A DNA stretch of 45,210 nt from NCBI GenBank assembly GCA_016938595.1, contig JAFGUJ010000080.1, positions 1 through 45,210 on the forward strand. The letters run 5' to 3'. The notes under the pieces were generated by a model that was not told where the DNA came from, made no database searches, and saw nothing but the letters and a program-made list of their open reading frames with translations. This DNA is from Campylobacterales bacterium (GTDB taxonomy: Bacteria; Campylobacterota; Campylobacteria; Campylobacterales; Sulfurimonadaceae). Each line of letters starts with the position of its first letter. Within the stretch, counting starts at the first letter, position 1. Of the stretch, positions 13,139 through 25,457 are shown one piece after another. The translations under genes were made by a program, and so were the position numbers.

Positions 13139-13891
13139 TTAGTGGAAAGCGATCGGCCCGTTGGCACGGGCGTGTATAAACTGCTGAACGACGTCATTGC
13201 TTGAAGATTGGAAGGATGCTTTGTCCCCCGTTTCGACGATGACGCCGTCAAAGAGCATCGCGTAATAATCCCCCGCCTTGAAACTCTCTCCGATATCGTG
13301 GCTGATCAGCACCGACGTCATCTTGATCTCGTCTCGCAGCCGGCAGATCATCTGGGTGATAAAATCGCTCGTGACCGGGTCAAGCCCCGACGTCGGCTCA
13401 TCGTACAAAATGACCTCCGGCTCCAGCGCCAGGGTACGGGCCAGTCCGACCCTCTTTCGCATCCCGCCGCTGAGCTCTTCGGGATAGAGAGGTTTGACGA
13501 CTTTGGGATCGAGCCCTACCATCGTGATTTTTTCATCGATTTTGTATTCGAGCTCTTTGGGGGTGAGCTTTTGGTGTTCCAGGATCGGAAACGCAACGTT
13601 CTCCCGGATGTTCATACTGTCGAAGAGCGCCCCGTTTTGGAACAAAAACCCCACCTTGGTACGGATCGCACGCAGTGTTACCTCATCGGCATTGTCGATC
13701 CGGGTCCCATCGAGGGTGATTTTGCCGCTGTCGGGTTTGAGCAGCCCCACGACATGCTTGATGATCGTCGATTTTCCCCCTCCGGAGACGCCGAAAATAA
13801 CGGTTGTTTTACCCCGCTCTATCTCCAGGTCTACCCCTTTGAGGATCTGCCGTTCCCCGAAACTCTTCGTGACGTTTTCGAAATGGATCAT
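13139..13891 (-). CDS. ABC transporter ATPase, MlaF-like
   Basis: A 250-aa ABC ATPase with Walker A GVSGGGKST (about 35-43), signature LSGGMRKRVGLART (about 138-151) and Walker B VILYDEPTSGLDP (about 160-172). The extended LSGGMRKRV signature and the SGLDP sequence are typical of MlaF/Ttg2A, the ATPase of the phospholipid-trafficking Mla system that keeps the outer membrane asymmetric. No MlaE permease or MlaD substrate-binding gene is adjacent. It overlaps the upstream membrane-protein gene by 4 nt (ATGA), so the two are translated together. Confidence 0.9.
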   Translation of the reverse strand: MIHFENVTKSFGERQILKGVDLEIERGKTTVIFGVSGGGKSTIIKHVVGLLKPDSGKITLDGTRIDNADEVTLRAIRTKVGFLFQNGALFDSMNIRENVAFPILEHQKLTPKELEYKIDEKITMVGLDPKVVKPLYPEELSGGMRKRVGLARTLALEPEVILYDEPTSGLDPVTSDFITQMICRLRDEIKMTSVLISHDIGESFKAGDYYAMLFDGVIVETGDKASFQSSSNDVVQQFIHARANGPIAFH

Positions 13892-16865: not shown

Positions 16866-17786
16866 ATGTTTAATTTTAAAACTGGTTTAATATTTATCCT
16901 CTTCCTGCACTCGTTTTACGGAGCTTTGTCGGCTTTGAGCGCCCGGACCATCGCTTTTGCGCAGGACACGCTGGCCAATGACTTTCGAAAGGCACAGCTT
17001 TTCGAGGTACGCGACGCGCTGGCCAAACACAGCCAAACGAAGTTTGTCTATTCGGATGCCAAAGGACAGACTTCGTTGCTGATCCACCAGATCAACCATT
17101 TTATCGCGACGAAAGCCGACCTCATCATCGTCGGAACCAACGATGAAAAGGCCGTTGTCCCGGTGGTTTCCAAAGCCTACCAAAGCAACATCCCGGTCAT
17201 TATCCTAGACCGAGGAATCACGGGAAAAGAATATACAACGTTTATCCATTCGGACAACGTCAAAATCGGAACACTGGGGGCCCGATACATCGCCAAAAGA
17301 CTGGGCGGAAGAGGAAAAGTGCTGCTGTTTGAAGGGCTTCAAAAAGCCGATGTCACCAAACTCCGAACCAAAGGGTTTATGGATGAAATCCGAAAACACA
17401 AACAGATAACCGTCCTCAAACGGACCGGCAACTACCTGCGCAAAGATGCGATCTTCGAAATGGAGAAACTGATCGCTTCGGGGGAAAAGATCGATGCGAT
17501 ATTTGCCGAAAGCGACAGTATGCTCAGCGGTGCCCGTCTGGCCATGCAGCGCCGCGGGATCGATCCCTCCTCTTTGGTCACCGTGGGATGCGACTACACC
17601 TCTGAAGCCCGTGATGCCATCAAAGCGGGGACGCAGAGCGGATCGGTCCTTTTCCCGCTCGGAGGGAAAAAAGCGGCGGAAACTGCACTCCGGATTCTAA
17701 AGGGGGAAAAAGTTCCCAAACACATTGTGATACCGGTGCAACTGGTAACCAAAGAGAATATTGAGAAAGTAGATCCGATTTTTTGA
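16866..17786 (+). CDS. periplasmic sugar-type substrate-binding protein (RbsB-like)
   Basis: A 306-aa exported binding protein of the type I periplasmic-binding-protein fold (Peripla_BP_4, ribose/galactose group). A signal peptide (about 1-26, ending ALSALSA) is followed by the mature N-terminus RTIAFAQDTLANDFRKAQ. Family landmarks are ADLIIVGTNDEKAVVPVV, IPVIILDRGI (hinge-side ligand strand), DAIFAESDSMLSGARLAM and VTVGCDY. ATG 16866 is preferred over an open TTG at 16854 because that TTG is part of the TTGGAG ribosome site. No ABC permease or ATPase gene is near. The next gene, whose start overlaps this stop by one base, is a membrane GGDEF-EAL protein, so the binding protein probably serves as a sensor, not a transporter component. 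Confidence 0.9.
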   Translation: MFNFKTGLIFILFLHSFYGALSALSARTIAFAQDTLANDFRKAQLFEVRDALAKHSQTKFVYSDAKGQTSLLIHQINHFIATKADLIIVGTNDEKAVVPVVSKAYQSNIPVIILDRGITGKEYTTFIHSDNVKIGTLGARYIAKRLGGRGKVLLFEGLQKADVTKLRTKGFMDEIRKHKQITVLKRTGNYLRKDAIFEMEKLIASGEKIDAIFAESDSMLSGARLAMQRRGIDPSSLVTVGCDYTSEARDAIKAGTQSGSVLFPLGGKKAAETALRILKGEKVPKHIVIPVQLVTKENIEKVDPIF

Positions 17787-20287
17787 TGATACGCATGTGG
17801 TATATGAAACTGAATTTAAAAAACAAACTCTCGGTGATTCTGATCTCCTCCATGGTCATACTGGTCGTCGTCCTCGGGGCCTATTTCGACACTTTTTTAC
17901 GCGAAAGCTATTTTGAAACGGCCAAACAGAGGATCTCCTATGCTTTCAACCGCATCAATCTGAATCTTTCCGAACTCGAAAACGATTTGACAAAAGGGGT
18001 GGCTTTCATCAAAGACGACGAGGCGATGCTCGCATCCGTCGAACTGATCAATGCCTATCAAGACAAAAACAATTACGATACCGTTTTGCTCGATGAAGAG
18101 AAAAAACAGATTGCCGAACAGCTCCTGCACAGGGTCAAACTCTCCTTGAACGATACGATCGCCCTTTACGACCGAAACGAAGAGCTGATCGCCTACGTCG
18201 CCAAAACGGATCCGGGCTATTCCCTTCATTTCGTCTCCTATGAAAACGGCCGTCCCCTCTTCTACAGCCGGCTGGAGGATGAAAACGACTACTGCCGCGA
18301 TGGACTTGTCGAACTCCGGCGCATCCCCTACAAACACGTCAATTACTACACCCAAAAAGAGCTCATGCAGAGTGCAATGATCACCTATCATTCCGACAAC
18401 GACGTACTGATCGTCACATCGCACCAGAGCCTTTTTGTGGGCGACAAAACATCCCCTACGGCACATATTGAACTCTCCCGCCACCTTGGCCCGTCCTATT
18501 TCCGACACCTTTCGCAGGATTTGAATATGGAGATTGCGGGGAGCACACATCCCTCCCCCCAAAGCGCCAGCCACCTGATGCAGGGGCCAAAGAACCCTGT
18601 GATCGACATCGTCGAAAATCATCAAAACTATCTCAGCAGCGGTGCTCTCCATACCCGCAACGGAGCGTATTACATCGCTGTCTCCCTTGAGAGGTCTTCC
18701 CTCTCCTCCATGTTAAACAAAAACCGCAGTGTCTTCGTCATGCTCATTTTGGCCCTGACGGCCATCGCCGTATTTCTGCTCCGCTTTTTGTTCAACCGCA
18801 GCATTGCCCGGCCCCTGCAGGCGCTGATGGTGCAGGTCGACAAGATCAAGCGGCAGGATTATTCGGATACCGTTGTCGTCCGCACCGGAGACGAGCTCGA
18901 AACCATCTCCGAAAACATCAACCAGCTGGCACGGACGATAGATGAGAGGGAAAATGCGCTGAGCGCATCCCAAAAACAGCTGGAGCATCTTTCGAACACC
19001 GACTCCCTGACCAATCTGCCCAACCGCCGTCTTTTCAATGCCCTGCTGGAGCATGCTCTGCAGATCGCCCGCAGAAACCATCAGCAGATTGCCGTCGTGT
19101 TTCTGGATCTGGACAATTTCAAACAGATCAACGACACTATGGGGCACGATGTCGGAGATGAACTTCTCAAAGCGGTTTCCCTGAGACTCAAAAGCTCGTT
19201 GCGCGGCAGCGACACGCTGGCCCGGATCGGCGGGGACGAATTCAATATCCTGATTGAGGGGATAGAGGAGAGAACACAGATCGCCCCGATCGTCCAAAAG
19301 ATACTGGACGATTTCAAGGAGCCGTTTTTCTGCAATGGCCATTCGATACGGACCACGACCAGCATCGGCATCGCCCTCTATCCCGAAGACGGAGAAGACA
19401 TCGTCACCCTGACCAAGCATGCCGATCTGGCGATGTACAAATCAAAAAACATCGGGCGAAACGCCTACAGCTATTTTTCACAGGATCTCTTCGATGCGAT
19501 CGAGAAAAAAACCCTCATTATCCATGAACTCAAAGCGGCCATCGATGCCAAAAACGGTTTTTATCTGCTGTATCAGCCCAAAGTCTCGGTACAAGAGCCT
19601 GAAAAAATGGCGATAGAAGCGTTGATCCGCTGGAAGAGTGAGACACTGGGACCCCTGACTCCGGACCGTTTTATCCCGATTGCCGAAGAATCCGGTCTGA
19701 TCATCCCCATCGGGCAATGGGTTTTGGAACAGGCCTGCCGCGATTTTCTCACATTGTCCGAGCAGGGGTACCGGTTCGACCATATCAGCGTCAACGTCTC
19801 CAGCATCCAGCTCCAGAAAAGCGATATGATCGCGACGCTGGGCAACCTGATTGCCGCCACACAAATCAATCCGACGCAGCTCGAGCTGGAAATCACCGAA
19901 AGCTATATCGCCACCGAGCAGCAAAAAGCCCTTACCACTCTTCAAGCGCTTCGGGACATGGGGATACGGATCGCGATCGACGATTTCGGCACCGGGTACT
20001 CCTCGATGAGCTATCTGCAAAAACTCCCCGTGACCCGGCTCAAAATCGATAAATCGTTTGTCGACGATCTCCCCGGTTCCGCCGAAAGTACGGCCGTGGC
20101 CAAAGCGATCATCGCCCTGGCCAAAACATTTGGCCTCTCCATCACGGCAGAGGGAGTCGAAACGGCCGAACAGCTGGCGTTTCTGGCGCAGGAGGGGTGT
20201 GATGAGATTCAGGGGTATTATTATTCCAAACCGCTCGAGATCGGTGCATTAAAAACGTTTGTAACATCGTTCAAAAGAAAAAAATGA
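17786..20287 (+). CDS. membrane GGDEF-EAL protein with large periplasmic sensor
   Basis: A protein of about 833 aa. TM1 is near 15-35, a periplasmic sensor of about 275 residues follows, then TM2 (about 314-334) and HAMP (about 335-388). The GGDEF domain has an intact RIGGDEF (GGDEF at 482-486) and an RxxD inhibitory site (RGSD) five residues before the motif. The EAL domain has intact EAL (611-613), with VNVSS, LEITES, DDFGTGYSS and AEGVET. Both cyclic-di-GMP synthesis and hydrolysis look possible. Start candidates are TTG 17783, ATG 17786, 17795 and 17804; MKLNLKNKL at 17804 is the most family-like, while 17786 gives a TGATG overlap with the binding-protein gene. The pairing suggests that liganded binding protein docks on the sensor. 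Confidence 0.9.
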   Translation: MIRMWYMKLNLKNKLSVILISSMVILVVVLGAYFDTFLRESYFETAKQRISYAFNRINLNLSELENDLTKGVAFIKDDEAMLASVELINAYQDKNNYDTVLLDEEKKQIAEQLLHRVKLSLNDTIALYDRNEELIAYVAKTDPGYSLHFVSYENGRPLFYSRLEDENDYCRDGLVELRRIPYKHVNYYTQKELMQSAMITYHSDNDVLIVTSHQSLFVGDKTSPTAHIELSRHLGPSYFRHLSQDLNMEIAGSTHPSPQSASHLMQGPKNPVIDIVENHQNYLSSGALHTRNGAYYIAVSLERSSLSSMLNKNRSVFVMLILALTAIAVFLLRFLFNRSIARPLQALMVQVDKIKRQDYSDTVVVRTGDELETISENINQLARTIDERENALSASQKQLEHLSNTDSLTNLPNRRLFNALLEHALQIARRNHQQIAVVFLDLDNFKQINDTMGHDVGDELLKAVSLRLKSSLRGSDTLARIGGDEFNILIEGIEERTQIAPIVQKILDDFKEPFFCNGHSIRTTTSIGIALYPEDGEDIVTLTKHADLAMYKSKNIGRNAYSYFSQDLFDAIEKKTLIIHELKAAIDAKNGFYLLYQPKVSVQEPEKMAIEALIRWKSETLGPLTPDRFIPIAEESGLIIPIGQWVLEQACRDFLTLSEQGYRFDHISVNVSSIQLQKSDMIATLGNLIAATQINPTQLELEITESYIATEQQKALTTLQALRDMGIRIAIDDFGTGYSSMSYLQKLPVTRLKIDKSFVDDLPGSAESTAVAKAIIALAKTFGLSITAEGVETAEQLAFLAQEGCDEIQGYYYSKPLEIGALKTFVTSFKRKK

Positions 20288-23708: not shown

Positions 23709-25457
23709 ATGGAAGAACATCGACCTCCGGAACCGATACGCGTCAACGGTATCCTCGAACAGTTGCCGGACGGGATGTTTACCATCGATACGAATTTCAT
23801 CATCGGATACGCCAATCCCGCCTTTTGCCGTCTCCTCGGATTCACCTTCGACGAACTGGTCGGATCGTCCATCACCGAACATCTGCACGATTTAAATATC
23901 CTCAACGTCTGCATGGACAGCCTCAATGCCACCGGCCGCTGCGAAGATCAGATGACCACCTTCAAACGAAAAGACGGCTCGGTCGTCCACATCTCCAAAA
24001 ACGTTCAGGCTCTCTACAACGACGACGGTTCGCTGCAAAGCGTGCTGGTCAGTATACGCGATCTCACCTCGCTGCATGAACTGAACAAAGAACTCTCCCG
24101 TTCCAAGTCCGATTTGGAACGCTACAGCAACGGCCTTGAGGCGCTGGTCGAAGAACGGACCAAGGAGCTGACCCACCGGCTGCTGCACGATACCCTCACG
24201 GGGCTTCCCAACCGCCTCAAACTGATCAGCGACCTCAAAGCATTGCACCTCCCCCATGCCATCATCCTGATCAATATCGACAGTTTCAACGAACTCAATA
24301 CGTTTTACGGCCATCAGATCGGAGACGAACTTTTGTGTGCCGTCGCCGCCACGTTGGTCGATTTGTCAGCCCAATGGGACCAATCGAGCGTCTACAAACT
24401 GCCGGTCGATGAATACGGCATCGTGATCCAAAATTTTTCCGCCCCCTCAGATATCGAACGGTTTGCAGCGAAGCTCTCCCACTGGATCAGCAACCATGTT
24501 TTTACGGTGCGTGATCAGGAAATCAGCCTTGCCGCAACCCTGGGGATCGCTTTTTCACCCCAGACCTCCGAAGACGACCTCAGCCTTCTCATCCGCTCCA
24601 ACATGGCCCTGAAACTGGCCAAAAAAACGCGGCGCGATCTTCTCGTATACGATCATTCGCTCCATATCAAAGAAGACTACGAAAAAAACCTCTCCTGGAT
24701 CAAAAAACTCCGAAGCGCCATTGAGGAAGACCGCGTTGCCCCGTTTTATCAGCCGATCGTCAATGCCGAAACGCTCAAAATCGAAAAGTACGAAGCCCTT
24801 GTCCGGATCATCGATGAGGACGGAAGTGTCATCACCCCGTTTCACTTTCTGGAGATCTCAAAAAAAGTGAAACTCTACCACCGGATCACGACGATCATGA
24901 TCGACAAAGTGTTCGCCGCGCTCCGGCTCCATCCGGATCGCATCTGTTCGATCAATCTCTCGATCGAGGATATCAACGATCTCTCGATGCGCACCTACAT
25001 CTTCGACAAAGTCCGGGAGTGTCCCCAGAGCCGCCACATCATTTTTGAGATTCTCGAATCGGAGGGGATTGAAAACTACGATCTTGTCAACCATTTCATT
25101 ACCGAAGTGAAAAAACACGGCGTCCAGATTGCCCTCGACGATTTCGGGGCGGGATATTCGAATTTTGCCTACATCGCCCGGCTTGACATCGATTACATCA
25201 AAATCGACGGCTCCATCATCCGCGACATCCACACCAACCCCATCTCCCAGATCATCACCGAAACGATCGTCGACTTCGCCACCAGGCTGGGGATCAAAAC
25301 GGTCGCCGAATTCGTCTGCTGTGAAGAGGTTTGCAGCTATCTCAAACATCTCCCGATCGATGCGATGCAGGGGTATTATTTCGGAGCGCCCAAGCCCTCG
25401 ATGGGCGGAACGTCCCCGAAGGTCGAAACTGATCAGCGGATCAGTGGTAAGGGATAA
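23709..25457 (+). CDS. cytoplasmic PAS - degenerate GGDEF - EAL protein, probable c-di-GMP phosphodiesterase
   Basis: A 582-aa protein without transmembrane segments. A PAS domain (about 12-125, LEQLPDGMFTIDTNFIIGYANPAF) leads through a coiled coil (about 128-158) to a GGDEF-fold domain (about 165-310). That domain keeps DTLTGLPNR, but its active loop reads KLPVDEYG instead of GGDEF. The EAL domain (about 325-570) has YEALVRI, SINLS, FEILESEG, DDFGAGYSN and KIDGS, that is, the usual metal and catalytic residues. It should hydrolyse cyclic-di-GMP, with the PAS and dead GGDEF domains as regulators. AAGGATTTTTT precedes the ATG. It is unlinked to the membrane GGDEF-EAL gene 3.4 kb away. Its 3' end overlaps the DsrE-type gene by 17 nt on opposite strands. 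Confidence 0.9.
   Translation: MEEHRPPEPIRVNGILEQLPDGMFTIDTNFIIGYANPAFCRLLGFTFDELVGSSITEHLHDLNILNVCMDSLNATGRCEDQMTTFKRKDGSVVHISKNVQALYNDDGSLQSVLVSIRDLTSLHELNKELSRSKSDLERYSNGLEALVEERTKELTHRLLHDTLTGLPNRLKLISDLKALHLPHAIILINIDSFNELNTFYGHQIGDELLCAVAATLVDLSAQWDQSSVYKLPVDEYGIVIQNFSAPSDIERFAAKLSHWISNHVFTVRDQEISLAATLGIAFSPQTSEDDLSLLIRSNMALKLAKKTRRDLLVYDHSLHIKEDYEKNLSWIKKLRSAIEEDRVAPFYQPIVNAETLKIEKYEALVRIIDEDGSVITPFHFLEISKKVKLYHRITTIMIDKVFAALRLHPDRICSINLSIEDINDLSMRTYIFDKVRECPQSRHIIFEILESEGIENYDLVNHFITEVKKHGVQIALDDFGAGYSNFAYIARLDIDYIKIDGSIIRDIHTNPISQIITETIVDFATRLGIKTVAEFVCCEEVCSYLKHLPIDAMQGYYFGAPKPSMGGTSPKVETDQRISGKG

Follow-up and report, generated by a model that had tools for sequence, protein, structure and literature searches.

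Does a ribose-type periplasmic binding protein that is encoded against a membrane-bound GGDEF-EAL protein, with no transporter genes beside it, serve sugar uptake or signalling? The question is raised by two genes in the window, by which we mean the whole 45,210-nucleotide stretch of DNA analysed here, part of a draft Sulfuricurvum-like genome (G000; 1.82 Mb, 89% complete). An earlier note on this DNA had described an exported RbsB-like protein without adjacent transporter genes, its stop codon overlapping the start of a membrane protein with a ~275-residue periplasmic sensor, a HAMP linker, an intact GGDEF domain with an RxxD site and an intact EAL domain. All of these features were recovered in our annotation of the locus:

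16866..17786, + strand: RbsB-type (type I, Peripla_BP_4) exported binding protein, 306 aa, without a transporter partner
16866..16943 (boundary approximate), + strand: N-terminal signal peptide of the binding protein, no lipobox seen, from sequence inspection; the mature domain of the structural model starts at ~residue 27
17784..17788, + strand: TGATG overlap of the binding-protein stop and the GGDEF-EAL start, putative translational coupling
17786..20287, + strand: sensor-HAMP-GGDEF-EAL membrane protein, 833 aa
17891..18721, + strand: periplasmic sensor, residues ~36-312, modelled as a divergent double-CACHE-like fold, no Pfam family
18035..18145, + strand: near-invariant sensor motif SxELINxYQDKxNYxxxLLDEEKK...KLS, residues 84-120, putative docking face
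18791..18940, + strand: HAMP linker
18995..19462, + strand: GGDEF domain, active site and RxxD inhibitory site intact
19526..20233, + strand: EAL domain, catalytic motifs intact

The binding-protein gene (Peripla_BP_4, Pfam E=4e-47) runs from an ATG at 16866 to a TGA at 17784-17786, which shares one base (17786) with the ATG of its partner. In the partner, transmembrane helices at residues ~13-35 and ~313-335 leave ~277 residues in the periplasm, and the HAMP, GGDEF and EAL domains all exceed their Pfam cut-offs. The I-site RGSD lies exactly 5 residues before the GGDEF motif, and the motifs EAL, EITES, IDDFGTGY, LKIDKSF, AEGVE and QGYYYSKP are all present. With both catalytic motif sets intact, the enzyme is, as judged from its sequence, a bifunctional GGDEF-EAL protein; its orthologues keep the GGDEF and EAL catalytic motifs, with RxxD missing in about a quarter of them. 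No transporter genes adjoin the pair, the only ABC ATPase of the region (13139-13891) being presumably of the Mla/Ttg2 type, and promoter and terminator scans around the pair gave counts close to those in shuffled sequences. The window also holds a second PAS-GGDEF-EAL gene (23709-25457), whose GGDEF domain scores weakly and is probably degenerate, and the genome as a whole has 43 GGDEF-domain matches, a high density for its small size.

Conserved adjacency of the two genes in other genomes had been set beforehand as the check on the pairing. Across 151 genomes of the family (Sulfuricurvum and its relatives), we counted the Peripla_BP_4 genes that pass the Pfam cut-off, leaving out two weaker matches in G117 and G137 as probable false positives. 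This gave 50 genes spread over 42 genomes. In G000, the window gene is the single copy. Every one of the 50 has a membrane signalling gene as its neighbour, namely a GGDEF gene in 47 cases (the background in G000 being 43 GGDEF domains in the whole genome) and a histidine kinase gene in two; in the last case (L052) the contig stops just inside the neighbour, where the start of a membrane sensor with a transmembrane segment is visible. Orthologues of the window protein account for 31 of the genes, at 42-74% identity, and all 31 are followed by the same-sensor GGDEF-EAL gene, normally within a few bases. Since overlapping or touching junctions recur in these orthologues across genera, the TGATG overlap is not a chance arrangement. 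Conversely, the full-length window-type sensor was found in 32 family genomes, with the binding protein adjacent in 31 (hypergeometric 8e-22 for co-occurrence, uncorrected for kinship, which inflates such statistics among related, non-independent genomes). In a wider sample of 397 genomes from the phylum, the sensor also occurs in the Campylobacterales families f4 and f7, mostly with an adjacent binding protein.

The remaining 19 genes are distant paralogues. Sixteen of them neighbour GGDEF proteins whose sensors differ from that of the window type, those of L073 and L079 neighbour histidine kinases, and the last is the gene of L052. Their partners include a ~690-residue GGDEF-EAL protein, a 792-residue PAS-GGDEF protein and 930-960-residue PAS-GGDEF-EAL-CZB proteins, among others. 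Adjacency is seen in four or more unrelated pair types. Further families of RbsB-type/GGDEF pairs with other periplasmic sensors, at least three in number, can be recognised (L042:5172-8502, L062:5027-8910, L082:4830-7963), the L062 type also having a LamB gene upstream. At L079:4973-7815, the gene of a divergent Peripla_BP_4 protein overlaps that of a histidine kinase (HisKA, HATPase) in which Pfam recognises no sensor. Among the 31 window-type loci, one has an insertion: at L067:5062-9424, the gene of a different solute-binding protein, NMT1/taurine-like by eye, stands between the RbsB-type and GGDEF-EAL genes, an arrangement that suggests a three-protein receptor.

The binding protein might nevertheless serve an ABC sugar importer whose genes lie at another place and merely moonlight at its neighbour, or never contact it. 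Outside the phylum, distant homologues carry annotations as RbsB transport proteins; in plasmid records, the relatives were only ~33% identical and those with an annotation were mostly RbsB-type transport proteins. However, the CUT2 permease (PF02653), the family searched here, is absent from G000 and from 149 of 151 relatives, and neither of the two genomes that have it carries a Peripla_BP_4 gene. Absences from G000 itself weigh little because that genome is 89% complete. Homologues consistently next to permease or ATPase genes had been named beforehand as the outcome that would speak against the pairing; the orthologues never stand beside a CUT2 permease. The window pair is thus not a CUT2 ABC sugar-uptake system, as the permease is missing from G000, and with the translational overlap and the recurrence of adjacency in unrelated pair types also against it, we regard a hidden importer as highly improbable.

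The arrangement can be compared with several known systems. NspS is a PotD-like protein that binds polyamines. In Vibrio cholerae, and also in Sinorhizobium meliloti, NspS-MbaA is a pair in which a periplasmic binding protein sets the net activity of a membrane GGDEF-EAL enzyme (PMC8967002, PMC9993111). The window pair likewise joins a periplasmic binding protein to a membrane GGDEF-EAL protein, and both features of an NspS-MbaA-type pair are found in it, namely adjacency of the two genes and no dedicated transporter beside them. In contrast to NspS, its binding protein is of type I and RbsB-like (Peripla_BP_4), with no match to a polyamine family, as the earlier note had anticipated; the pair therefore does not belong to the NspS family by descent, which has a polyamine-type (type II) protein. 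In the ScrB-ScrC operon of Vibrio parahaemolyticus, an enzyme with both GGDEF and EAL domains is switched by its periplasmic binding protein (PMC10269520), the same logic that we propose here. ScrB, however, binds an autoinducer made by ScrA, whereas the loci inspected here contain no synthase gene and some have LamB instead.

In LuxP-LuxQ and TorT-TorS, no ABC transporter is involved and the membrane sensor is under the control of a type I binding protein, as would be the case here. These two systems differ in having a histidine kinase as output and AI-2 or TMAO as ligand, and the window protein matches the TorT and LsrB models only weakly. The closest signalling relative by structure is BT1754, the hybrid two-component fructose sensor of Bacteroides, which also uses an RbsB-type domain as a sugar sensor; there the domain lies within the kinase polypeptide, whereas the window encodes it as a secreted protein of its own, next to a cyclic-di-GMP enzyme. 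With E. coli RbsB and other CUT2 sugar-binding proteins the window protein shares its fold, ~30% identity (to E. coli RbsB) and the core sugar contacts, but RbsB is encoded in the rbsDACBKR transporter operon and the window pair lacks permease and ATPase. Given the conserved adjacency and the orthologues without a neighbouring CUT2 permease, the comparison supports NspS-MbaA-like logic, as the earlier note had suggested, as the best reading of the window pair.

What ligand might such a pair detect? Against family models, the window protein scored 123 bits with RbsB, 46 with TorT and 13 with LsrB, reaching neither the cut-off of the RbsB equivalog (NCBIfam, 337 bits) nor that of LsrB (384 bits). 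RbsB gave the best match in all pair types tested but one, the kinase-linked protein of L079, which matched no model, and the closest folds to the predicted structure were ribose-binding protein followed by fructose-sensing BT1754 (Foldseek rank 2, E=3e-24). Of the positions that we take to contact sugar in E. coli RbsB (N13, D89, R90, R141, D215 and others), four show no variation among 30 orthologues, namely N13, R90, R141 and D215 (N38, R116, R167 and D243 in window-protein numbering), and D89 (D115) is kept in 28 of 30. Position F15 is occupied by F or Y and F164 by Y. Other positions carry the substitutions S9D, N64G, N190S and F214C and, in the pairwise alignment, an invariant R in place of F16. 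The pocket differs further in a five-member subclade (L055, L060, L067, L072, L075). Because the core contacts are kept and others are changed, the pocket points to a sugar-like ligand that is probably not ribose.

The genes found upstream bear on the same question. Few family genomes (11 of 151) have a gene for LamB, the maltoporin, and in each of these 11 the gene lies directly upstream of a binding-protein/signalling pair, eight of them of the window type (8 of 31 such loci) and three of a divergent type; co-occurrence of LamB and the pair by genome alone gives a hypergeometric value of 3e-7. Characterised LamB channels are carbohydrate channels, so this constant position argues for a carbohydrate ligand. 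No LamB match was found in the window's own genome (89% complete); the porin thus appears to be optional, and the case for a sugar is indirect for the window member.

The earlier note had left the input as sugar or AI-2, and only the first of these is favoured by the RbsB-like pocket and the upstream LamB genes. A quorum-sensing input to cyclic-di-GMP through AI-2, in the manner of LuxP or LsrB, would be consistent with the type I fold shared with LuxP, with the two PAS/CACHE-like lobes of the sensor, as in LuxQ, and with luxS in 140 of 151 family genomes. The pair, however, occurs in only about one fifth of these genomes, and luxS was not found in the incomplete G000. The distribution of luxS does not track the pair and, because the gene is nearly universal, is uninformative about AI-2. 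The low LsrB score (13 versus 123 bits for RbsB), the retained sugar contacts and the LamB linkage, which points to glycans, also argue against AI-2, which we consider an unlikely ligand, and a quorum-sensing role for the pair accordingly a slim prospect.

A non-sugar small polar molecule is a more serious, if still doubtful, candidate, with TMAO, the ligand of the type I protein TorT, as a precedent; the rest of the mechanism would be unchanged. The five departures from RbsB in the pocket (S9, F16, N64, N190 and F214) and the weak TorT match would fit such a ligand. The retained RbsB-type contacts, the preference for the RbsB model in all pair types tested but the L079 kinase-linked protein, and the co-occurrence with LamB count against a ligand of this kind.

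The sensor was modelled with a pLDDT of 84 as a long N-terminal helix followed by two alpha/beta lobes. Its Foldseek neighbours were dCACHE domains (2p7j, 3lid) of GGDEF proteins, kinases and chemoreceptors, at modest TM-scores of ~0.35-0.5; Pfam Cache models gave no convincing match to the window sensor, and a sensor profile run against PDB sequences found only a weak match in the HAMP region. The model resembles a divergent double-CACHE fold. Conservation in the sensor is highest along NYxDxxNYxxxLLDEEKK, a stretch within the N-terminal helices of its periplasmic region. A single full-length sensor in the family, the sensor-GGDEF-EAL protein of G133 (L112:4816-7296), is an orphan in a genome without any Peripla_BP_4 match, and in it the DEEKK stretch is damaged by a two-residue deletion and substitutions. 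From this one natural case, the DEEKK stretch may be the docking site for the binding protein.

Many dCACHE domains bind ligands directly, those of diguanylate cyclases included (PMC8846402), and the sensor could do so as well, in which case the binding protein would be an accessory, such as a co-receptor or a scavenger of ligand, and not the main input. Against this stand the higher conservation of the binding protein (66% mean column identity versus 44% for the sensor), the decay of the sensor motif where the binding protein is gone, and the near absence of full-length family sensors without a binding protein, which together make direct sensing improbable. Binding protein and sensor travel together: their identities correlate at r=0.87, compared with 0.57-0.74 for binding protein and output. 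The same binding protein and sensor are joined to a PAS-GGDEF-EAL output of another lineage in L044 and L078, and to PAS-HisKA-HATPase in L118:4323-7604.

We therefore consider it likely that the pair is a two-protein receptor in which a sugar-like ligand, acting through the RbsB-type protein, controls the coupled GGDEF-EAL enzyme rather than being transported. The physical interaction, the ligand class and the transmission of the signal are parts of this proposal that we infer. The secreted protein would capture a small sugar-like molecule in the periplasm, close around it and, through contacts between the proteins, dock onto the double-CACHE-like sensor at its membrane-distal part. Docking would shift the transmembrane helices and the HAMP linker and tip the balance between synthesis by GGDEF and breakdown by EAL, so that the sugar would set cyclic-di-GMP and hence attachment or motility. 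In those relatives with a LamB gene directly upstream, the porin probably lets the ligand cross the outer membrane.

The external signals that act on cyclic-di-GMP enzymes are known in few cases. Among domains of the binding-protein clan, SBP_bac_3 is the only one that a review of 2022 lists as studied in cyclic-di-GMP networks (PMC8846402). Our literature search, with partial coverage of subscription journals, found no RbsB-type protein paired with a GGDEF enzyme, which at that coverage is not proof of novelty. One genome of the sample (G062) is Sulfuricurvum kujiense DSM 16994, as a stretch of its 118,585-base contig exactly matches the DSM 16994 plasmid. In this genome, LamB, binding-protein and GGDEF-EAL genes follow one another at L039, and L081 is a further pair; with the operon in a cultured type strain, ligand and output are directly testable.

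More broadly, the chances seem to us evenly balanced that the ribose-type binding-protein family as a whole has switched from uptake to sensing in Sulfuricurvum and related chemolithoautotrophs. LamB (where present), an orphan sugar-binding protein and a GGDEF-EAL enzyme would then make up a pathway from carbohydrate to cyclic-di-GMP that is dedicated and non-nutritive, and its portable binding-protein/sensor module would also have been placed on other GGDEF-EAL enzymes and on histidine kinases. The sulfur-oxidising bacterium of the window and its relatives probably read a sugar as information rather than as food, and a sugar cue in bacteria that live on sulfur and CO2, without a matching importer, would separate sensing from feeding.
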